Part shown: one piece after another, positions 1 to 13,720 of the stretch
Layout of the letters: the number at the start of each line of letters is the position of its first letter
Position numbering within the stretch: position 1 is the stretch's first letter
DNA from: a virus
IMG/VR virus record: IMGVR_UViG_3300024339_000053
Span: 1 to 31,170 of that record
Reading direction: 5' to 3' (one strand)
Length of the DNA: 31,170 bases
The notes under the pieces: model-generated
What the model was told of the DNA's origin: nothing
Seen by the model: the letters and a program-made list of their open reading frames with translations, nothing else
The model's database searches: none
Position numbers and translations under genes: made by a program

Positions 1-776
1 GCAGCCTTTAAGTCGTAAATGAGAGGGCCTAAGAAGGAGCGTACAGAGTAATCGTGTGTAATCTCCTTCGGTGGTGTTGCTGAGAAACCAAGGCGAACAG
101 CAGCCTTCTTAAAGGACTTTAAGCAGCTTTTAGAAAGTTTCCCTTTTCCAAACTCGTGAATTTCGTCATAAAGGATAAACTCTGCGTGGTCTACATGACT
201 ATCTAAAATCTTGTCTACTGACTGGATAGTGCAAAGAGTGATTGGTTTAATATCGTTAGCCTCTCCACACACAATACCACAGTCAATACCTAGTTTTTGG
301 AATTCCTTGTAAGTTTGAAACAAAATCTGCTTTTTAGTAAAAAAAATAACTCCTATAGAGTCTTTAAAATAATTTGCAACACTAGCTAAAATAAGAGTTT
401 TACCTGACCCTGTAGGTGCTTTTATAATTCCTCTAAAATTATTCCTTTCAATAGCCGATAAAGCACTTTCTTGGTAGTGCCGTAAAGTGACACCTGGTAA
501 AGGGTTACGGTTTATAGAAGGGATACTAGTTGTGTTATCTTTTAAAGTGTATTGAGCATTCACAGTGGAAAGATCGTCCAAAACTTCGTCAATAATACCA
601 GTGCCTAATCGGCCACCTTTAGTAATAAATTGTTGAGTACCATTCCAACCTCCTCGTCCTTTGGAGGCAAAATAAGCATTAGGGATTTTAAAACTATACT
701 TTTTTACTAATAAAGATAATAACTCTTTATCACATTTAACCAATCTTGTATAAATATTATCTTTTATGATTTGCAT
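1..776 (-). CDS. SF2 DNA/RNA helicase, UvsW-like (partial, C-terminus off the window)
   Basis: The minus strand reads open from an ATG at 776-774 to the left edge, giving the first 258 residues. Visible are a Q-motif-like LRHYQESAL, Walker A APTGSGKT (motif I), IFFTKKQILFQTY (motif Ia region), the DEAH-type motif II as DEIHEF, and motif III as SATPP. Their order and spacing are those of an SF2 helicase of the T4 UvsW / type III restriction ResIII class. In T4, UvsW unwinds branched DNA and RNA-DNA hybrids in recombination-dependent replication. The roughly 110 residues before the Q motif suit a UvsW-type N-terminal DNA-binding region. The C-terminal RecA lobe (motifs IV-VI) lies outside the window. 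The gene diverges from the gp26-like gene across 44 bp. There is no Shine-Dalgarno; a TATTATAGT box sits 4 nt before the ATG. The helicase call is firm and the UvsW assignment likely. Confidence 0.9.
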   Translation of the reverse strand, partial: MQIIKDNIYTRLVKCDKELLSLLVKKYSFKIPNAYFASKGRGGWNGTQQFITKGGRLGTGIIDEVLDDLSTVNAQYTLKDNTTSIPSINRNPLPGVTLRHYQESALSAIERNNFRGIIKAPTGSGKTLILASVANYFKDSIGVIFFTKKQILFQTYKEFQKLGIDCGIVCGEANDIKPITLCTIQSVDKILDSHVDHAEFILYDEIHEFGKGKLSKSCLKSFKKAAVRLGFSATPPKEITHDYSVRSFLGPLIYDLKA

Positions 777-780
777 ACTA

Positions 781-789
781 ACTATAATA
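781..789 (-). promoter_or_regulatory. Start-proximal TATTATAGT box upstream of the helicase
   Basis: On the minus strand TATTATAGT is followed by 4 nt (TAGT) and then the helicase ATG. The same box, at nearly the same distance, precedes the genes at 821 and 4887. Read as a -10 element without a -35, like T4 late promoters, transcription would begin at or within a few nt of the AUG. Promoter function is inferred from position and recurrence. Confidence 0.5.
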
Positions 790-808
790 ATGAATAGGGG
801 TTACTCCC

Positions 809-817
809 TATTATAGT
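809..817 (+). promoter_or_regulatory. Start-proximal TATTATAGT box upstream of the gp26-like gene
   Basis: TATTATAGT ends 3 nt before the ATG at 821, and no Shine-Dalgarno lies between. It is identical to the box before the divergent helicase gene and one base different from the box before 4887. If it acts as a -10 element the transcript would be leaderless or nearly so. This rests on recurrence and position only. Confidence 0.5.
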
Positions 818-820
818 AAT

Positions 821-1645
821 ATGAACGAAGAAAATAATAAAACTCTTGGAGATCTTTTCGCTGAAAAGTATCATGGAAGCAAAGAAGCTACTACTCCTAC
901 TCCTGGTATCCCTGTTGATACCACAAAAAAAGATATCCTTTCAGGTTTACTTTCAGAAGTGAATAATGATTTTATTGAAATTGTGCTTCCTTCAAAAAAT
1001 GTGTTTTATGAAGAAGATACAAAAGTAATGATTAAACCTTTTACTTATGAAGAAGAGAAAATGCTTTTATCCTCTTCCAAAATAGGAGGTAAAAACATTA
1101 TTAACAATATGATGGGGAAGTGTGTAAAGGGAGTATCCATTCTTGATCTTACGTTACCAGATAAAATCTATCTTTTATTCAAGTTGAGAGAAATTTCGTA
1201 TGGTACAGATTATAATGTTCTTTTAAATTGTTTACACTGTGAGGAACCCAATGAGATGATTATCCCTATTAATGAGCTAACTGTTAATTATATTGATGAA
1301 AAGGCATGCACTGTAAAACAACTATTTCTCCCTGGGTCTAAGAGAAACGTAGAAGTAACGGTACCTAGATCAAGAGATGAAGACCTGATAACCAAACCTT
1401 CTAAGCTCATGGATAATTTGTGGAGATTTGTGAACAGGGTAGAGGATATTGAAGACAAAGATATTATTAGAGCTTTCGTTAAAAAATTACCTGCACAAGA
1501 TGTTTCAAAACTTCGGAATTCCATTCTTAATGAAGAATGGGGTTTAGAGACTAAAATTTCTTTTCATTGTATGCATTGTGAAGAAAAAAATGATATGGAT
1601 CTACCTTTAACAGCAGATTTTTTCTCAGCGAGTTCAGAGAATTAA
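821..1645 (+). CDS. T4 gp26-like baseplate hub / tail assembly protein with two CxxC pairs
   Basis: The 274-residue product matches my recollection of the T4 baseplate gp26/gp51 family. After a disordered N-terminus comes the LPSKNVFYEED block (56-66), then KPFTYEEEKMLLSS (72-85), then REISYGTDYN (123-132). C137/C140 (CLHC) and C250/C253 (CMHC) form two CxxC pairs, probably one zinc site. In T4, gp26 is needed for baseplate hub assembly. T4 gp26 is shorter (about 208 aa); the excess here is mostly the N-terminal 50 residues. The 0-frame stop at 1643-1645 lies just after a slippery heptamer, so this is probably the short product of a frameshift pair, as with lambda gpG/gpGT. The ATG has no Shine-Dalgarno and follows a TATTATAGT box by 3 nt. 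The helicase diverges upstream and a structural gene follows. Confidence 0.82.
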   Translation: MNEENNKTLGDLFAEKYHGSKEATTPTPGIPVDTTKKDILSGLLSEVNNDFIEIVLPSKNVFYEEDTKVMIKPFTYEEEKMLLSSSKIGGKNIINNMMGKCVKGVSILDLTLPDKIYLLFKLREISYGTDYNVLLNCLHCEEPNEMIIPINELTVNYIDEKACTVKQLFLPGSKRNVEVTVPRSRDEDLITKPSKLMDNLWRFVNRVEDIEDKDIIRAFVKKLPAQDVSKLRNSILNEEWGLETKISFHCMHCEEKNDMDLPLTADFFSASSEN

Positions 1646-1663
1646 CCTTTCGTTCCCTGAACT
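1618..1663 (+). other. Programmed -1 ribosomal frameshift signal
   Basis: TTTTTTC at 1618-1624 is in the correct phase for X XXY YYZ slippage (codons GAT TTT TTC). It is followed by a 6-nt spacer (1625-1630) and a perfect 7-bp inverted repeat, AGTTCAG (1631-1637) with CTGAACT (1657-1663), whose 19-nt loop contains the 0-frame TAA. A shift into the -1 frame gives an open frame to 1815. Heptamer, spacer, stem and productive frame agree, which makes chance unlikely. Confidence 0.8.
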
Positions 1664-1815
1664 ATGAACTTTATTTGTTAGTAAAGAACATCGGATTTAG
1701 TTATGAAGATGTTCATCGTATGACAAAAGCAGAAAGGAATATATACCTAGAATTTCTAATAGAAGAGAGGAAAGAGGAGAAGGAACAACTAAATAGTATT
1801 AGAGCAGGTTCTTAA
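1624..1815 (+). CDS. -1 frameshift extension of the gp26-like protein (gp51-like C-terminal tail)
   Basis: After slippage the ribosome would read CTC AGC GAG TTC and continue for 63 codons to TAA at 1813-1815, giving a 331-residue fusion (268 + 63). The frame has no plausible start of its own: its first ATG is deep inside, at a methionine in HRMTKAERN. The tail is helical and charged, with MTKAERNIYLEFLIEE as its most recognisable part, the kind of C-terminus seen in tail assembly chaperone T domains. In T4, genes 26 and 51 are neighbours and both act in hub assembly, so a 26/51-type short/long pair fits the position. It ends 4 nt before the next ATG, so translation of the long form could couple to the 323-aa gene. 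Homology to gp51 is inferred from position and form. Confidence 0.72.
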   Translation, partial: LSEFRELTFRSLNYELYLLVKNIGFSYEDVHRMTKAERNIYLEFLIEERKEEKEQLNSIRAGS

Positions 1816-1819
1816 TCCT

Positions 1820-2791
1820 ATGGCAACAATTCCAGGCAATAAAAATATCAGTGTTACTAACCGTAACAACCGACCATCCCCTTCTTCCAGAGTGCTTCTA
1901 GAGTTATACACTCTAGAAGCGGGATCTCCTTACAACATCTACGAGGTGCATTCAGTACATGTGTTCCCTAAAGGAGACTTCAATTATGAACAAGTAGAAA
2001 GTCAATATTTTGTAGATTATGAAACAGGGTTAGTTAGCGAGGACCAAGCATTAGAAAGTGCAGTTATGATTTTCTCAGGAACTGAGAATGGGGGAGCAAC
2101 AACGCTTGGGTGTAAACATATTTCAGAGTATACAGGAGATGCTACAACATCACAAGATATCTATCAAATGTATTCTATTGAAGCACAGTGGGAACATCCA
2201 GGATTAGAAAGGTATGGTATAGCTTTACATAAAGATTCCCTCTTTACAAAAGATGCCATAGTGTATACAAATGGAGCTACCCATTCTGGTGATTATTTTG
2301 ATGTATGGACTGTAACTTTTGGCCCAGGGGAAGACCCTCAGCTATTAATTAATGAGTTCACACTTTATCCTAGTAATAGGTTTCATTTTACTGAACCTCT
2401 ACATGCAAAGGCTAAGGCACGCTTAAAGACAAATAAGTTGAAGTATGGTTCTAAAGAGGAAGTGATTCTTTCTACAAGTGTAAGTATTCTTAATAAAAAT
2501 ATTGGAAGTGAGATTATTGCAATGCTTAGACACTCCCTTATTGAAGAAGCAGAATACACTATTACTCGCTATAGGGAAGATGGTGAATTCCCTCAAAAAG
2601 CCCTCCTAAAGGATTGGACTCCAGTTGATACTATTGATTCTGATGATACCTTATCTTTTATGTTAGATACTACAGAGTTAAATGCAAATGAGTTAATTAT
2701 TAACCCTAGAGGAATGTATCATATACAAGTAAGATTTAGTCTTGCTGGTCAAATAGTTTACTCAGATGAATTCCCTTTGATTGTAGAGTAA
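1820..2791 (+). CDS. Hypothetical virion structural protein, beta-rich (323 aa)
   Basis: I do not recognise this protein. It is soluble, with no signal peptide or membrane segment, and rich in alternating hydrophobic and polar strands. An N-terminal domain (to about 195) contains the EVHSVHVFP and YGIALHKDSLF stretches. A C-terminal portion (about 196-323) runs from LHAKAKARLKTNKLKYGSKE to MYHIQVRFSLAGQIVYSDE. Its strand pattern resembles an Ig-like or CARDB-like beta sandwich, as in adaptor or decoration proteins. The ATG lies 4 nt after the stop of the frameshift product and has no Shine-Dalgarno, so reinitiation is likely. Its 3' end overlaps the convergent primase gene by 34 bp. A structural role is inferred from context and composition. 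Confidence 0.6.
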   Translation: MATIPGNKNISVTNRNNRPSPSSRVLLELYTLEAGSPYNIYEVHSVHVFPKGDFNYEQVESQYFVDYETGLVSEDQALESAVMIFSGTENGGATTLGCKHISEYTGDATTSQDIYQMYSIEAQWEHPGLERYGIALHKDSLFTKDAIVYTNGATHSGDYFDVWTVTFGPGEDPQLLINEFTLYPSNRFHFTEPLHAKAKARLKTNKLKYGSKEEVILSTSVSILNKNIGSEIIAMLRHSLIEEAEYTITRYREDGEFPQKALLKDWTPVDTIDSDDTLSFMLDTTELNANELIINPRGMYHIQVRFSLAGQIVYSDEFPLIVE

Positions 2792-3804
2792 ACAAGATCC
2801 ATAGAATCATACTTCTTAGTCTTTTTAATTTGAAGTAAAACGGATTCTTTTCCTTCTAATGTAAACATATCATTCCAATCTTTGTATTCTAATGAAGGGT
2901 GACAGGTTAAAATTCGTTCTGGCTCTATTCCAACTTTAAGAAGTTTAGGCACAAGACTGGCTTCAGCTACTCTCCCTGGTTTATCATTATCCATAGATAA
3001 AACAAACTTCATATGTTTATCTATTTTTAATACTCGTAACTGTTCCTGAGATATAGAAGAACCTTGGAGAGAAGTAGCATTAACTCCTATACTCTGGAGG
3101 GTTATAGCATCCAGAGGTCCTTCAACAATAAACAAATAATCTTTCTGGGTGTTATAAGGGTATAAAATATCTGAAGATTTAACCCCACAGTCTTTTGAAG
3201 AAGGATTAAGATATTTAATTTTATCATTAAATAAGGTTCTAGCTTGATAATAAATTACCTTATCTTCCAATATAAAAGGAATAATAAGTCTACCAAACAA
3301 AGGACCAGGTTTATCTCCGATTAAGAACAAGTGGTTTAAGTTATATAAACCTTTATTCTTTAATAACTTAATAGCTTTATTCTTTAATATATTGTTATTA
3401 GTATCTTTTATATTGTTTGTATATTCTTTTATATTTAAAGAAGAGAAGTCTTTGTTATTACTAATAAATAATCTATTATAGTCATCTTGAGGAGGCTCTA
3501 GAAGACTTTTTATGTTTTCTTCCAGACTTTCCATACTGCGAAGGTATTTCCTTCTTAATCTAGCCTCTGCTTCTCTAAAAGAGATTTTCTCTACAGCTGC
3601 TACCAACCCAATAATATTTCCTTTCTTTTTGGCTCTAAAGTCTTGCCAGAGTCCCGTTTGCATATTAATCGAAAGGTGGTATCCTGTATCCTTAACAAAT
3701 ACAGAGTTTATAGTGAACTCCTGACTATGATAACCTACCACCTTGTAATCGGTGAAAGTAGACTCCAAATAGTCTTTAATATTTTTAGAAGAAAGTTTAA
3801 TCAT
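2758..3804 (-). CDS. TOPRIM DNA primase, DnaG/gp61-like, lacking zinc ligands
   Basis: A 348-residue primase that would make RNA primers at the phage replication fork. The N-terminal region (residues 30-85) has the spacing of a CHC2 zinc-binding domain, with HLSINMQTGLWQDFRAKKKG where family members carry Cys/His ligands, but no CxxC is present. Only two cysteines occur in the whole protein, both downstream. A very AT-rich Asn/Lys linker (about 115-155) follows. Next comes the DnaG-like core: GRLIIPF (171-177), the TOPRIM glutamate in VEGPLDA (E228), the DxD in SMDNDKPGR (D272, D274) and a DWND motif (309-312). I chose the ATG at 3804-3802 over an upstream GTG at 3840 because it shares CATG with the divergent nuclease start. 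The 3' end overlaps the plus-strand structural gene. Confidence 0.85.
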   Translation of the reverse strand: MIKLSSKNIKDYLESTFTDYKVVGYHSQEFTINSVFVKDTGYHLSINMQTGLWQDFRAKKKGNIIGLVAAVEKISFREAEARLRRKYLRSMESLEENIKSLLEPPQDDYNRLFISNNKDFSSLNIKEYTNNIKDTNNNILKNKAIKLLKNKGLYNLNHLFLIGDKPGPLFGRLIIPFILEDKVIYYQARTLFNDKIKYLNPSSKDCGVKSSDILYPYNTQKDYLFIVEGPLDAITLQSIGVNATSLQGSSISQEQLRVLKIDKHMKFVLSMDNDKPGRVAEASLVPKLLKVGIEPERILTCHPSLEYKDWNDMFTLEGKESVLLQIKKTKKYDSMDLVYSTIKGNSSE

Positions 3805-4594
3805 GTTTATAAATAATTTTTCAGCATCCAAGCTAAGCACTTATGAGGAATGTCCTCTGAAGTATAAGTTGAGGTACGTTGATCGTCTTGATCCCGTGTT
3901 TAATGATAATAGTAATACAGACGCTTTACACTATGGTTCTTTCGTTCACAAGGTATTTGAGGATGGCGTTGAAGCTGAAACTATGGAAGACCTAATGGAA
4001 ATAGCAAATAAAGAGAGAGACAACTACGACTTTCCTAAATCTAAGTTTCAAAACTTTAAGGACATGTGCAAAAACTTTCTTAAGTTAAATGCTACCTTGA
4101 ACGAAGTAGGAGAGGCAGAGCAGAGGTTCAAGTTCCAGTTTGGAGACCCAGAAAAAGATATGAACGTCAATGGTATTATAGACCGTATCATTAAGTCAGA
4201 GAGTGGAAAATACTTAGTCATTGATTACAAAACCTCTAAACGTCCAAAAACCCAAATGGATTTGTTCAGGGATGACCAAATGAAGATGTACGCCTACGCA
4301 GTCACTCAGCTGTACTCTGTGAGCGTTAAGGACGTTACTCTTGCCCATTTCTACCCCCACCTCGATAAACTCGTTACAGTGCGTTTCTGTGCGGCTGACA
4401 TAGCTTCCTTTTTGAAGAAAGTGCAAGAACGAATGTGGAAAATCCGAAAAATGAAGAAAGATGATTTCTCAGCTTGCCACAACAAGTTCTGCAATTGGTG
4501 TGGGTACAAAGGAGTATGTCCTAAATTCAATGACCAAATGTTAATTGAACAAAGAATGCAAGCTTTTCTCGATACTAAGGGAGATAAAGGTTAA
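3803..4594 (+). CDS. PD-(D/E)XK nuclease, RecB/Cas4-like with probable Fe-S cluster
   Basis: The 263-residue protein shows every motif of the RecB/Cas4/AddB-type nuclease family. These are SASKLSTYEECPLKYKLRY with C17, GSFVH (G45, H49), NGIIDR (D127), VIDYKTSK (D141, K143) and QMKMYAYA (Q159, Y163). C230, C233 and C239 in FCNWCGYKGVC, with C17, match the four-cysteine iron-sulphur staple of AddB and Cas4. The likely activity is metal-dependent DNA end resection in recombination, repair or genome processing, with the neighbouring helicase and primase as plausible partners. The start is fixed by the motif beginning at residue 6. Base composition differs from its neighbours: 4261-4380 is about 47% GC by my count, against about 22% in 4621-4740. 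Its 3' end overlaps the convergent 93-aa ORF by 20 bp. Confidence 0.9.
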   Translation: MFINNFSASKLSTYEECPLKYKLRYVDRLDPVFNDNSNTDALHYGSFVHKVFEDGVEAETMEDLMEIANKERDNYDFPKSKFQNFKDMCKNFLKLNATLNEVGEAEQRFKFQFGDPEKDMNVNGIIDRIIKSESGKYLVIDYKTSKRPKTQMDLFRDDQMKMYAYAVTQLYSVSVKDVTLAHFYPHLDKLVTVRFCAADIASFLKKVQERMWKIRKMKKDDFSACHNKFCNWCGYKGVCPKFNDQMLIEQRMQAFLDTKGDKG

Positions 4595-4856
4595 GGTCTA
4601 TATCCTCGAAGAACTCAAAAATAATTTCCTCATTAAACTTAGTTTTAATTTTGAGGAAATTTTTTAGGGATTCCCTCTTAATTGGTTTTATTTCTTGGAG
4701 TGATTTTAAAATTTTTAATCTAAAAACTCTAATAAAGTCTTCAGAGTATTTATGTTTCCATTTTAGTAGGAAAGCTTCAGAAAATAAAAAATCTAAACTA
4801 TCTACATAATCTAAAAGTTCTATACTATAAGAGTTTACTTCTTCAAAATATACCAT
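4575..4856 (-). CDS. Hypothetical small protein, very AT-rich (93 aa)
   Basis: I do not recognise it. It is predicted to be helical, with an acidic, hydrophobic N-terminus (SLDFLFSEAFLL), a basic middle (FRLKILKSLQEIKPIKRESLK) and an acidic, hydrophobic C-terminus (IFEFFEDIDLNLYLP). There is no membrane segment. It fills the whole space between the nuclease and the tail operon, overlaps the nuclease by 20 bp tail to tail, and diverges from the 191-aa gene by 30 bp, as a real phage gene would. It ends in TAG. SLDFLF resembles the clamp-binding peptides of T4-like proteins such as gp33, whose C-terminus I recall as TLDFLL, but here it is near the N-terminus and the rest does not match. Confidence 0.55.
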   Translation of the reverse strand: MVYFEEVNSYSIELLDYVDSLDFLFSEAFLLKWKHKYSEDFIRVFRLKILKSLQEIKPIKRESLKNFLKIKTKFNEEIIFEFFEDIDLNLYLP

Positions 4857-4886: not shown

Positions 4887-5462
4887 ATGTCCCATCCTTT
4901 ATCTAAATACTTGACTACAAGTAAACGAATAAATTACTTAAATGTAAAAACAGGTTCTAGTTCTCACTCAAGCCATCCAAACTTGAGTGTTGTTTCTGAC
5001 CCTGAAAAGAGAAATTTTATTCATGATGGTGATGGCATCCCTCAGGAGGCTACTTGGGAGAGAAGTATTTTACCTTGGCGATCTCCTTCAGGTACCATTT
5101 TTAAATTTCCTTACCAGAGTTCTGATTCCCAAGGCAGAGCCAATAAGGATAACTACCCTATTGTTATTTACCTTAATCACAATAACTATGACATGAGGTA
5201 TAATACTACTGGGTGGGGAGATAGTCTTTATGACAACAATGCAGGTGCTCAATTTTTCACGGGAATTAGTGTTCGATACGTAGACTTAGAACTAGCACTT
5301 GCTTTGTCTCGTATTATTAAGAATAAAGGGCATCATGTTAATTATGAAACCATCCAGAACATTGATAAATATATTGCGTACTCTGCTTACAGGATGTACT
5401 ACAGAAAAAATATTCCTGAAAAAAGTGTAGAAAAATTAAATATTACTAAACTAGAATACTAA
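4887..5462 (+). CDS. Hypothetical tail-operon protein (191 aa)
   Basis: I do not recognise this protein. The N-terminal third is Ser/His-rich and probably extended. A middle region has aromatic, beta-type segments (SILPWRSPSGTIFKFPYQ near 61-78, then NYPIVIYLNHNNYDMRYN near 88-105). The C-terminal 60 residues look helical (VDLELALALSRIIKNKGHHV, then KYIAYSAYRMYYRKN). There is no membrane helix or signal peptide. It leads the tail operon, sits directly before the tape measure gene and overlaps it through TAATG. That place suits a tail assembly, tail terminator or tube-associated protein, but nothing in the sequence decides which. The start is supported by the TATAATAGT box 4 nt upstream. Confidence 0.65.
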   Translation: MSHPLSKYLTTSKRINYLNVKTGSSSHSSHPNLSVVSDPEKRNFIHDGDGIPQEATWERSILPWRSPSGTIFKFPYQSSDSQGRANKDNYPIVIYLNHNNYDMRYNTTGWGDSLYDNNAGAQFFTGISVRYVDLELALALSRIIKNKGHHVNYETIQNIDKYIAYSAYRMYYRKNIPEKSVEKLNITKLEY

Positions 5463-7582
5463 TGTCTGATCTTGACCAATCCTCCTCTACTGAGATTTTA
5501 GCGTCTCACCTACTTATTTTAGTTGAAACTGTTAAAGATCTTACTTCTTCTTTAAACACACAAAAGGAAGAAGTTGTAAGAAATAAAAAAGCTACAAAGA
5601 CTGCTGCTGACCATTTAACGGATGCAGGAGAAGCTGCTAACCAGAGTAGTAGAAATGTTGAAAGAGCAGGTTTGGTAGACATAGAATCCAGTAAAGGGAA
5701 TGCTAGAGTAAGAGAGAAAAGTATTCTTCGTACATTAGGGGTTTTTGGTAAGCTTAACTCTACTATTACAGATACTTACACTCAAGGTTTAGGAAAGACT
5801 TTGGGCTTAACTGATAAAGGATTAAATTTCTTTGAAGAAGCTAGGAGAAAAGAAGCAATTGGACGTGTAAAGAGCTTTACTTCTGTTACTCATTATTTAA
5901 AACTCTTTATTGGTTTTCTCAGTGGGGCTTTAATGCAAGGAGCAAAAGATGTTGTAAAATCTTTTTCTCAAATTTCTTCTGTGTCAGCGGCTTTTGGAAA
6001 GTCATTCGACGATGTTCTCAACACTAAATTTTTAGCAGAATTAGCGAAAAGTGGGATTACTTACAAGGAAGGAGTTGAAGCTATCGTAGCTGCAACTACA
6101 AATGGTTTTAATCCTATGTCCAAAGGGATGCAAGACCTTGCTAAGAGATCTGCCCTTTTAGGGATGGATGTTTCCCAAAATACGGCTATTACTAAGCAAC
6201 TCTCTGTAACTACAGGAATAGGCAATAAAGCTGGTCTTGAATTAGTGAATGCTACTCTAGACTTAGCACAATCCTTTCATTTAGATTCTCATCGTCTTGT
6301 AATGGCTTTACAAGAATTAGGTCCAACTCTAGCAAGAGTTTCCCTTGCACAAGGAAAGGATGCTGCGATAGCAATGGGGGAAACATTGACTAGATTGACT
6401 AGTTTAATGGGGTCTAGGTCAGAAGGTCAAATTGCAGATCTTTTACAAGGGTTAGCAGGGAACCAATTTAAAACTTTTGTTACAAAAGGAATGTTTGCGG
6501 GTAATGTATCCTCGGAAGCATTAGCAGGTAAGGAAGGTTCTAAGCAACAAGTGCAAGCTTTGGCTGACTTAGGACAAGCAATTAAGTCACAGCTTACTAC
6601 TGCTTCTGGAGGATCGAGTGCTGAAGTTGGTGCTTTATTAGCACCCATTTTTGCTGACCTTACAGGCTTAACCCAGAATCAATTAGAATCCCTGATGCTT
6701 ATTGCTGACTCTTTTACTACAAGTGCAAATAATGAAATAGAAAATAGAAATGTGTTATTAAAACAACAGGAACAAACCATTTTAACAAATGATTTAATGA
6801 GAAGTTTTAATACTTCCCTTCAAGCTTTACTTGTTAGTTTTACTGGAGAGGCGATTCCCGTTGTACGTTTTTTATCAGCATACTTACAAGTGTATGGCTC
6901 TATAGTATCTCAGCAAATTATAAAAGTAGCTAAATTTAGCTATTCTCTTGTAGCTTTTGCTGTTAGGAATTTTGGTCTTTTATTAGGAATGAAAGGTTTG
7001 CTTTTTCTAAGTAACACTCTTTCAAAAGTGCATGCTCTTCAAGCCCAAGTTTTAGAAGCAAAGAATGTTGGTATTACTCACAACATTTTACGTGGTATTC
7101 ATACTGAACTTGTAAGAAATACAGCTACAACAGCAGCAGGCAATGCTACAGCTACGGGGGGTAAATTCGCAGGAGCTCTAAGTTTCTTAGGGCCTCTCGG
7201 TATGGTTGCTGGTTTAGCTACAACTGCTTTTACTATGTACTCTGCATATAAAGGAGCAAAAGGAGTATTAAATCACGATTATGAATCTCCTTCCGAAGAT
7301 GCTCAAATTAAGAAGTTACTAAAACAACAAGAAGATGATATGGCTAACGAGTTAGCTGAACTTAGAAAACAAACTAAATCTTTAGACACTATTAAGGATA
7401 ATTCATCTAAGAATAACCCCCTAAATTCCGTTTTTGAAAATGCTCAAGTTCTACAAAGTGAATTAAGTTTGCAAATTCTAGAAGAGCTTAAAGCTGCGAA
7501 TGCTCTAAGGCAACAAGACTTAAGACAAAGAATAATAGATGGGTCATCACCCACAAATGCAACTCTAAATACAGGGTTTTAA
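5462..7582 (+). CDS. Tail tape measure protein (T4 gp29 position)
   Basis: The 706-residue protein has the make-up of a tape measure: mostly helical, rich in Ala, Leu, Gln and Ser, almost without cysteine, with hydrophobic patches in a soluble framework. A helical N-terminus (1-60) is followed by hydrophobic stretches near 143-165 (LKLFIGFLSGALMQG), 490-517 (YSLVAFAVRN, LLLGMKGLLFL) and 568-600 (FAGALSFLGPLGMVAGLATT). The C-terminal 90 residues form a charged coiled-coil-like tail (IKKLLKQQEDDMANELAELRKQ). At about 0.15 nm per residue, the length predicts a tail of roughly 105 nm, close to T4, whose gp29 has about 590 residues. The ATG shares its A with the stop of the preceding gene. Baseplate hub genes follow immediately, as expected. 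Confidence 0.8.
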   Translation: MSDLDQSSSTEILASHLLILVETVKDLTSSLNTQKEEVVRNKKATKTAADHLTDAGEAANQSSRNVERAGLVDIESSKGNARVREKSILRTLGVFGKLNSTITDTYTQGLGKTLGLTDKGLNFFEEARRKEAIGRVKSFTSVTHYLKLFIGFLSGALMQGAKDVVKSFSQISSVSAAFGKSFDDVLNTKFLAELAKSGITYKEGVEAIVAATTNGFNPMSKGMQDLAKRSALLGMDVSQNTAITKQLSVTTGIGNKAGLELVNATLDLAQSFHLDSHRLVMALQELGPTLARVSLAQGKDAAIAMGETLTRLTSLMGSRSEGQIADLLQGLAGNQFKTFVTKGMFAGNVSSEALAGKEGSKQQVQALADLGQAIKSQLTTASGGSSAEVGALLAPIFADLTGLTQNQLESLMLIADSFTTSANNEIENRNVLLKQQEQTILTNDLMRSFNTSLQALLVSFTGEAIPVVRFLSAYLQVYGSIVSQQIIKVAKFSYSLVAFAVRNFGLLLGMKGLLFLSNTLSKVHALQAQVLEAKNVGITHNILRGIHTELVRNTATTAAGNATATGGKFAGALSFLGPLGMVAGLATTAFTMYSAYKGAKGVLNHDYESPSEDAQIKKLLKQQEDDMANELAELRKQTKSLDTIKDNSSKNNPLNSVFENAQVLQSELSLQILEELKAANALRQQDLRQRIIDGSSPTNATLNTGF

Positions 7583-12400: not shown

Positions 12401-12743
12401 ATCCGTTTTAGTTCCAACTTACTTAGTAGAAGGGTGGAGCGACCCTGACCCCAAGATACAAACAATAGACCTCCTGAATCAACAAGCTAACCACTATTCT
12501 AGGATTAATCAACTACTTCACGAACTTACGATTACAGTTCCTGGAATACCTGAGCTTTCTTCTTTAAACGAAGTATGGGGTAAAGATAGAAGGTGGGTCA
12601 AGATTCAAGTTTATAACCAACGGACAGGAACTGCACACTGGTTGTCGGGAAAATATTCTCTCTATGGAATGTCTCACAAAATTTCTTCTGATGGGGGTTA
12701 CGTTACTAAGCTTCACTTAATCAATATGGTAGGTAAAATATAA
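9471..12743 (+). CDS. Giant baseplate hub protein (gp27/gpD-like) with coiled-coil insertion
   Basis: The 1090-residue product sits between LysM and spike genes, where the hub (T4 gp27, P2 gpD) belongs. The N-terminal 240 residues are beta-rich with LMWGYGAHERTWSEPHKAII (136-155) and FGDKILNIKMQDIISFEMG (165-183). Then comes a Pro-rich hinge (DPAPLPPSPT, 273-282) and a long coiled coil (about 284-370, NQERDNVERLTFDLNTLKEK and onward). After an acidic, Ser-rich linker, a second globular half ends in a typical hub domain: RRWVKIQVYNQRTGTAHWLS, then YSLYGMSHKISSDGGYVTKL with final LHLINMVG. T4 gp27 has only about 390 residues, so this is a large expansion. It probably forms the trimer that carries the spike. 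The ATG follows the LysM stop by 2 nt, and the stop overlaps the spike start as TAATG. Confidence 0.7.
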   Translation: MPVPVPNTHSGENFPYENNASLVNVAMSFDEEAMLKFKKGLAKGVIEDTPNVFSLTPGNQLISFESKIGKYQSETEAGLLYDLKLLELPTEEGDYFQAMLFEQYIMTKNCTMSMVADDTGKYSLTGGIEGIPSLYLMWGYGAHERTWSEPHKAIISEIKYDFNTFGDKILNIKMQDIISFEMGVLANKKASYEILTEIDFNKSFYWNISNSISKFLSGVFYNSFTVVNLGKEFKAKLDAREKKLTTHELSDAMQKDKQEGEDFVPILFSTPNDPAPLPPSPTANQEKLLNQERDNVERLTFDLNTLKEKESSLTANKSKLINESTSQDPKDAEIAQIEQQLTNNKTEQKSTSASITSSQNNIKNLESNVERRYPPTETDTTYAQGGFLDGADPEDAFPASKTGDIEVSPTRHSSGQSVDTMETQRHSENIDKYNSLLQDFLSTVGFSTYRAVQLKNNQSPAQPKVFVYDDSIPETEGDNSGSSPNRKVNDNFATELEPDLQKEFDTTMNSMGSVTTSPFVLHLNVLRSEQLFGRGSWDKDGKLKPPPNLDLNLHSSDNGFSPYSVIAYGKGIGQALSICSNDETDKNGPAHMEQARFIVNAQKLEEKRKNYENPIVTADSLTNKTTGMTSQERQDFLEEVSEAQYQQDRDDFSEKSKIKIYIRMAKPAGISMRDFILGSKNSNNNVPGLVPQLTELADALGVEDHESLIFTSSRIKDDIIVNEYIKNSEMATLVYLGKENLYHDLILKGESPSEDKYHEGTSFRKVHSLKCTSNSVRSSSDSKVSDTPESYDLVFTYGRRGVATTEGTQYIQQEPLIIDMKYKLFSSYYYSLFSNLRSNNESISDRHDTSITAMLEKLTAEGKDKFMENYPKWLGVSPSDSNYHVIKKRASKVWDYFTDSASNTFSISKFSTDDNLRKIATSDMQDIKSNIVNGAKGLSDEDAELGLNFFFSLTKSKKPNKRWVGEEETFDNTSVDESVLVPTYLVEGWSDPDPKIQTIDLLNQQANHYSRINQLLHELTITVPGIPELSSLNEVWGKDRRWVKIQVYNQRTGTAHWLSGKYSLYGMSHKISSDGGYVTKLHLINMVGKI

Positions 12744-13720
12744 TGAACACACTTCAAATTTATGAAGGGATAGTAGAGCCAAACAGTGATAACAATGCAA
12801 TGGAATCAGGGTCTCTACAAGTTAAGTATGCCGAAGGAGTGGCTACCGTACATTACTGTAGTCCTTACGGTGGTTTTGACTACGGCTTTGTAGGTATACC
12901 TTTAGCAGGTACAAAAGTTGCTTTCGCTAGAACTAACAAAGGAAACTATGTTCTACTTGGGGCAATTTTTACTACAGAGTGGCATGAGAAAGAAGTGGGG
13001 GGCGAGAAAGATTTTATAGCAACACCTACTCTTCCTGATAAAGCGGAGATCTTTAAATGGAGTGGTTTTCCTGGAAAATCTGTTTGGAAAGACCCTAATA
13101 ATAATAAGATTTGGTTAAACCATCAAACAGTAAATACGGAAGATGAAGGAGAGAAGCAAGATAGAGGAATTCTTTTACGCACAGAGTTAGAGAAACATAT
13201 CCACATAAATGATACGAAGGATGCTGAGTATATTATATTAGGGGATAGAGCTAACAATGAGGTGGATGATAAAGTAAACTGGATAGGGATTATAAAAGAT
13301 GCAGAAGGTTTAGACGATGACTCCATTGTTGCCTTTGCTACTAATAAGATTACTTTAACAGGAAGGGGGGTAGGGGATATTAAAATTGTTGTTAAAGCTA
13401 ATCATTTTGATGTCGATATTATTATTGAGAATGAAGGGGCAGGAAACATTAACATTATCGCTGCTCAAGGGGATATTAATTTAACCGCAGAGCAAAGTAA
13501 TATCAATTTAACAGCTGCAAAGGATATTATTCTTGATGCAGGAGGGGAGGTAGGTATCCATGCAGGTTCAGCAATAACCGAAACTGCTGGAGGTACTATT
13601 TCTCAAAGTGCAGGGGCTAGTTTTACCCAATCTTCAGGAGGGGCTATGTCCTTATCCTCAGCTGCAGGAAGTTGGTCAGCTGCGGGTTTAAGCCTAGGTT
13701 CTCCTGTTGCTATGCTTTAG
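12743..13720 (+). CDS. Central spike protein, gp5/gpV-type (OB fold plus beta-helix)
   Basis: The 325-residue protein forms the cell-puncturing tip under the hub. Residues 1-95 fit the OB-fold of gp5/gpV/VgrG proteins (IYEGIVEPNSDNN, LQVKYAEGVATVHYCSPYGG, PLAGTKVAFARTNKGNYVLL). After a linker, residues about 195-320 are short repeats typical of the trimeric spike beta-helix: NINIIAAQGDINLTAEQS, NINLTAAKDIILDAGGE, then Ala/Gly/Ser-rich turns such as TISQSAGASFTQSSGGAMS. There is no lysozyme domain, unlike T4 gp5, so it resembles the simpler P2 gpV. I see no metal-binding HxH tip motif; it ends in LSLGSPVAML, so a separate PAAR protein elsewhere is possible. It overlaps the hub gene through TAATG and ends in TAG, with 20 nt before the next gene. 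Confidence 0.85.
   Translation: MNTLQIYEGIVEPNSDNNAMESGSLQVKYAEGVATVHYCSPYGGFDYGFVGIPLAGTKVAFARTNKGNYVLLGAIFTTEWHEKEVGGEKDFIATPTLPDKAEIFKWSGFPGKSVWKDPNNNKIWLNHQTVNTEDEGEKQDRGILLRTELEKHIHINDTKDAEYIILGDRANNEVDDKVNWIGIIKDAEGLDDDSIVAFATNKITLTGRGVGDIKIVVKANHFDVDIIIENEGAGNINIIAAQGDINLTAEQSNINLTAAKDIILDAGGEVGIHAGSAITETAGGTISQSAGASFTQSSGGAMSLSSAAGSWSAAGLSLGSPVAML

Follow-up and report, generated by a model that had tools for sequence, protein, structure and literature searches.

Comparison with relatives makes it very probable that a single gene of an uncultured T4-related phage yields two tail-assembly chaperones, one short and one long, by ribosomal −1 frameshifting. The gene lies in a viral DNA stretch of 31,170 nucleotides (IMG/VR record IMGVR_UViG_3300024339_000053), analysed whole and called the window here, and its features are collected in Table 1. 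Most ribosomes would read the gp26-like frame (TAC-N, 274 residues) to its stop, while a minority would slip back one base at T_TTT_TTC as the Phe-tRNAs in the P and A sites pair anew with TTT TTT, an event that a downstream hairpin may assist. The slipped ribosomes would read the −1 frame to position 1815 and yield a predicted product of 331 residues, TAC-NC, in which gp26 is joined to a gp51-like helical tail. We infer both the slippage and its rate. By analogy with lambda gpG and gpGT, the short and long forms may act as chaperones, many short and few long copies coating the tape measure protein and recruiting tail tube subunits.

Table 1. Features of the chaperone locus, in window coordinates
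Feature	Coordinates	Strand	Details
gp26-like short product, TAC-N	821..1645	+	274 aa; gp26 stop 1643–1645
Slippery heptamer T_TTT_TTC	1618..1624	+	in phase, X_XXY_YYZ
Spacer TCAGCG, 6 nt	1625..1630	+	read from the sequence
Stem-loop AGTTCAG/CTGAACT, possible stimulator	1631..1663	+	folding energy; hairpins at a similar place in many relatives
Putative −1 frame extension, gp51-like TAC-C	1624..1815	+	63 codons + TAA; phrog match, selection, model
Next gene, conserved neighbour	1820..2791	+	323 aa; tblastn matches 3′ of the pair in most clade contigs

Re-reading of the sequence showed all the coordinates in the first-pass annotation to be correct. The heptamer is in phase within the open reading frame, TTT occupying 1619–1621 and TTC, which encodes residue 268, 1622–1624. 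The six-nucleotide spacer follows directly, and the stem is perfect, its seven base pairs joining 1631–1637 to 1657–1663. Open from 1624 to the TAA at 1813–1815, the −1 frame provides 63 codons after the heptamer, runs 56 codons past the gp26 stop and ends 4 nt before the ATG at 1820. The extension was also described as having no sensible start of its own, and this is so: near the junction the −1 frame offers a single start codon, a TTG placed 19 codons in, which sits within the conserved core of the extension and has no evident ribosome-binding site. An open frame of 66 codons has a chance probability of about 0.003 at the composition of the window. From the window alone, the case for a frameshift would be suggestive; comparison raises the heptamer and open −1 frame far above chance. 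Sequence, phase, family identity, conservation and selection on the −1 frame are all directly observed.

When IMG/VR was scanned with five aligned relatives as query, 80 loci were recovered; three do not differ from the window over the matched stretch, and the rest are 28–39% identical. A readable gp26 stop is present in 78 sequences, namely 77 relatives on viral contigs and the window itself. The expected conservation of the heptamer was found throughout, with TTTTTTC or TTTTTTT (T_TTT_TTY) in phase near the end of gp26 at 78/78 loci. At every one of these the −1 frame continues for 51–65 codons past the gp26 stop, and in no relative of the window's clade is the heptamer lost and the −1 tail kept, a case that the first-pass annotation had held to speak against frameshifting. 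The gp26 TAG of two loci (L058 and L059) lies 16 nt after the heptamer start, like the others. Given amino acids and codon usage, the unfailing retention of NNT followed by TTT has log10 p = −17.4 (45 representatives, below 90% identity), a value that is overstated because it assumes independence. Elsewhere in the gp26 of the relatives, 3 of 11,951 codon positions carry an in-phase T_TTT_TT. The tail was compared within seven independent relative pairs: counted by first, second and third codon position in the −1 frame the changes are 28/9/75, and of the single changes 62 are synonymous and 16 nonsynonymous. This pattern argues that the tail is translated in the −1 frame and is under purifying selection.

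The identity of the short product as gp26 was borne out by matches to PF12322 (T4_baseplate, the gp26 family; E = 3.3e-17, 63.4 bits against a cut-off of 24.5, residues 66–268) and to phrog_150 (baseplate hub; E = 5e-19). Its AlphaFold2 model (pLDDT 86.7) resembles other gp26-like proteins, best of all the baseplate hub subunit of SP-15 (Foldseek E = 2e-19). A sequence search of the PDB with the gp26 profile gave no match and a fold search there with the model gave nothing significant; comparison with the HK97 chaperone (2ob9) fell below significance (Foldseek E = 4.9, TMt 0.37), which counts against the chaperone reading.

A gp51 identity had likewise been proposed for the tail, and profile searches agree with it. 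The match of the −1 extension to phrog_634 (baseplate hub assembly catalyst, gp51; E = 1.4e-3, columns 73–113) is weak for the window alone and so is a further point against, and the match to the C-terminus of phrog_150 has E = 0.06. The tail of one relative (L013) matches phrog_634 at E = 1.3e-3, and the gp51 proteins of cyanophage and T6 match the same families, their values for phrog_634 being 5.7e-28 and 4.5e-24, respectively. A 65-residue tail, modelled without an alignment and hence from shallow though usable data, is predicted to be helical (pLDDT 82). The PHROG matches also illuminate the make-up of gp51. T6 gp51 matches phrog_150 over its full length (columns 14–280) as well as phrog_634, and the match of T6 gp26 to phrog_150 ends at column 235; the 57-residue P-SSM2 gp51 matches phrog_634 and, within phrog_150, covers just the C-terminal columns 239–278. 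These column ranges indicate that the T4-type gp51 is a gp26-like protein plus the tail, and that the cyanophage 'gp51' is the tail alone. For T6 gp51 the PHROG matches are better evidence of homology than a scan with a long-form profile, in which it came only second of 2001 against shuffles.

The hairpin in the window is real, but its stability is only moderate given the base composition (−11.0 kcal/mol, z −2.0 to −2.9), 3–7 of 200 dinucleotide shuffles being as good. Many clade members have, at the equivalent place, a perfect hairpin of 9–11 bp and different sequence that starts 8–9 nt after the heptamer, and 72% of cells in the relatives' hairpin are paired compared with 47–56% in slid versions. 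The stability of the family's hairpins differs weakly from that of a control stretch downstream (mean z −1.6 against −1.2). Pair-change measures of covariation across the relatives are no better than in shuffles and RNAalifold found no consensus fold in their hairpin region, so we claim no conserved stem; these measures did not bear out the conservation of the stem that the first-pass annotation had proposed as a check, and the missing covariation is another point against the frameshift. The window stem is a possible local stimulator.

If the tail were instead a small gene in its own right, gp51, with translation beginning at a start of its own or by re-initiation past the gp26 stop, TTT TTC would just encode Phe-Phe, a pair that is near-invariant in gp26. 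The cyanophages lend this explanation some substance: in 80/80 loci (L090–L169) gp26 ends TTTTTTC-NNN-stop-GT-ATG, the ATG annotated as the start of gp51 lying two bases past the stop, so that gp51 could be produced there in two forms, fused to gp26 and as a small protein of its own. Some jumbo-phage relatives also have an ATG early in the −1 frame. A tail encoded as a separate gene with its own start, which the first-pass annotation regarded as evidence against frameshifting, was not seen in the window's clade; cyanophages do provide such a start, yet all 80 cyanophage loci keep TTTTTTC in phase near the end of gp26. Within the clade, the −1 frame lacks an ATG close to the junction in 30 of the 34 representatives, the window offers only the TTG mentioned above, and NNT-TTT-TTY is invariant well beyond codon usage. 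T6 and a Mosigvirus serve as natural controls, since their gp51 is a separate gene on the opposite strand to gp26 (T6 positions 2192–3618). Their gp26 has no heptamer and writes Phe-Phe as TTC TTT, and past this point the −1 frame belongs to the next gene and not to gp51. Retention of Phe-Phe without the heptamer where gp51 is separate would be predicted if the heptamer's role lies in the shift and not in the protein. We consider a separately started tail improbable in the window. The T6 gp51, as a full-length gp26 homologue with a tail, fits the idea that a second gene took the place of the frameshift.

A shift made by RNA polymerase slipping on the T run, and not by the ribosome, seems to us a little less probable still. 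The signal does contain a run of six or seven T, and slippage on runs is a known recoding route (PMC5009743). It is general knowledge, however, that polymerase slippage does not require the X_XXY_YYZ phase and that six T followed by C is short for it; longer runs, moreover, have not been selected. Ribosomal −1 frameshifting is also in keeping with other phages, an in-phase T_TTT_TTN together with a gp51-like or gp51-positioned tail in the −1 frame being seen in Vibrio nt-1 and VH7D, Aeromonas G2, Escherichia 121Q, Agrobacterium Atu_ph07, Pseudomonas Ettore, Xanthomonas XacN1 and Rhizobium RHph_I1_18. The conserved heptamer, the codon test, selection and the family matches leave well supported the proposal that gp26 and gp51 are here one gene with two products, the T4 counterpart of lambda G/GT.

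A different arrangement is seen in SP-15, LIS04, GXN1, Flavobacterium immuto and LR756508 and in 29 contigs with a readable stop, one of which is SP-15 itself: there the +1 frame carries the tail, and early stops interrupt the −1 frame in most cases. Many of these loci share GAR-TTY-TTT-CGT(-CCN) near the gp26 end and have no in-phase −1 heptamer. This sister clade probably uses a +1 frameshift, and the direction of the shift thus appears to differ between sister clades. We lean, by a little, towards a single chaperone family whose long form would be made in three ways: by −1 slippage at T_TTT_TTY in the window's clade, jumbo phages, KVP40-like phages and cyanophages; by a +1 (or −2) shift, often at GAR-TTY-TTT-CGT, in the SP-15 clade; and as a separate gp26-like paralogue in T4. 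If true, gp26/gp51 would form a natural series in which a recoding signal switches direction and in the end gives way to a second gene, and such changes of direction between clades would make the evolution of recoding signals testable. The +1 branch was not found in the literature searched, the full text of Vladimirov, Gautam & Davidson (2022) falling outside that search. Loci with a +1 (or −2) tail are L006, L007, L008, L177, L182 and L183–L214.

In lambda, the G/GT heptamer is GGGAAAG and the pair lies directly before the tape measure gene. The window, with TTTTTTC, is likened to lambda by scheme and not by sequence. Vladimirov, Gautam & Davidson (2022; Virology 566:9–15, doi 10.1016/j.virol.2021.11.003) reportedly treat the tail assembly chaperones of T4-like phages, naming genes 26 and 51 in the abstract, and are said to find frameshifting kept in several T4-like groups, while in T4 itself 26 and 51 are two distinct genes. 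These authors had already proposed the link between T4 gp26/gp51 and G/GT; it is well supported here, and the window is a well-supported example of a known device. A 2016 review had described G-T frameshifting as widely conserved "except T4" (PMC5009743). Passages citing Vladimirov et al. (2022) mention a short gene and a separate long fusion gene in some T4-like phages (PMC10274946) and, within T4-like TAC-N genes, poly-T signals for −1 frameshifting (PMC12846349). As represented in such passages, these chaperones share with the window a TAC-N of the gp26 family, a gp51-like TAC-C and poly-T −1 signals, but the window belongs to another, uncultured lineage, in which helicase, primase and exonuclease genes flank the pair. 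Kyanoviridae (P-SSM2, S-8S55) resemble the window in having an in-phase TTTTTTC where gp26 ends and a gp51 encoded in the −1 frame, but the additional gp51 ATG allows re-initiation as an alternative there. The TAC locus of Vandenendeviridae and Andersonviridae (phage Adele) also has a conserved −1 frameshift at a poly-T motif; that motif is GTTTTT and was described from genome comparison (PMC12846349). The present analysis adds a marine lineage in which conserved replication genes lie next to the pair, and a sister clade whose tail is in the +1 frame. The results provide independent support, from many more genomes, for the T4 hub factors gp26 and gp51 as the T4 version of the lambda G/GT chaperones. 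They also indicate that in several groups of phages, among them a large one of mostly uncultured marine and jumbo phages, annotation splits or misses the long form and its gp51 tail.

Most clade contigs have the order helicase (−), gp26 (+), tail (+), 323-residue protein gene (+), primase (−), PD-(D/E)XK exonuclease (+) and small gene (−), so the lineage stably keeps replication genes next to the pair. This conserved mixed block, from helicase to small gene, spans 3–4856 of the window. The remainder is a contractile-tail cluster with gp25-like and gp6-like wedge proteins, a Tail_P2_I domain and a DUF2345 (VgrG-type) protein. The presumed tape measure (5462–7582; 706 residues, eight Pro, no Cys) is a guess from position and composition, with no family match and no relative in ten contigs. 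Of the earlier statement that the pair lies about 3.6 kb from the tape measure with replication genes between, the distance and the intervening genes (the 323-residue protein gene, primase, exonuclease and two small genes) stand, while the tape measure itself is that positional guess. The usual G/GT layout, in which the gene is directly upstream of the tape measure, is not essential and is not seen in the window; this separation, which most frameshifted chaperones do not show, counts against the reading. T6 genes 26 and 51 also lie outside that layout. Elsewhere in the window, the gene at 12743–13720 and the large gene that follows it have reading frames that overlap at 13672–13720, with an in-phase GGGTTTA at 13684; the listed ORF start, TTG at 13672, is probably not the real one.
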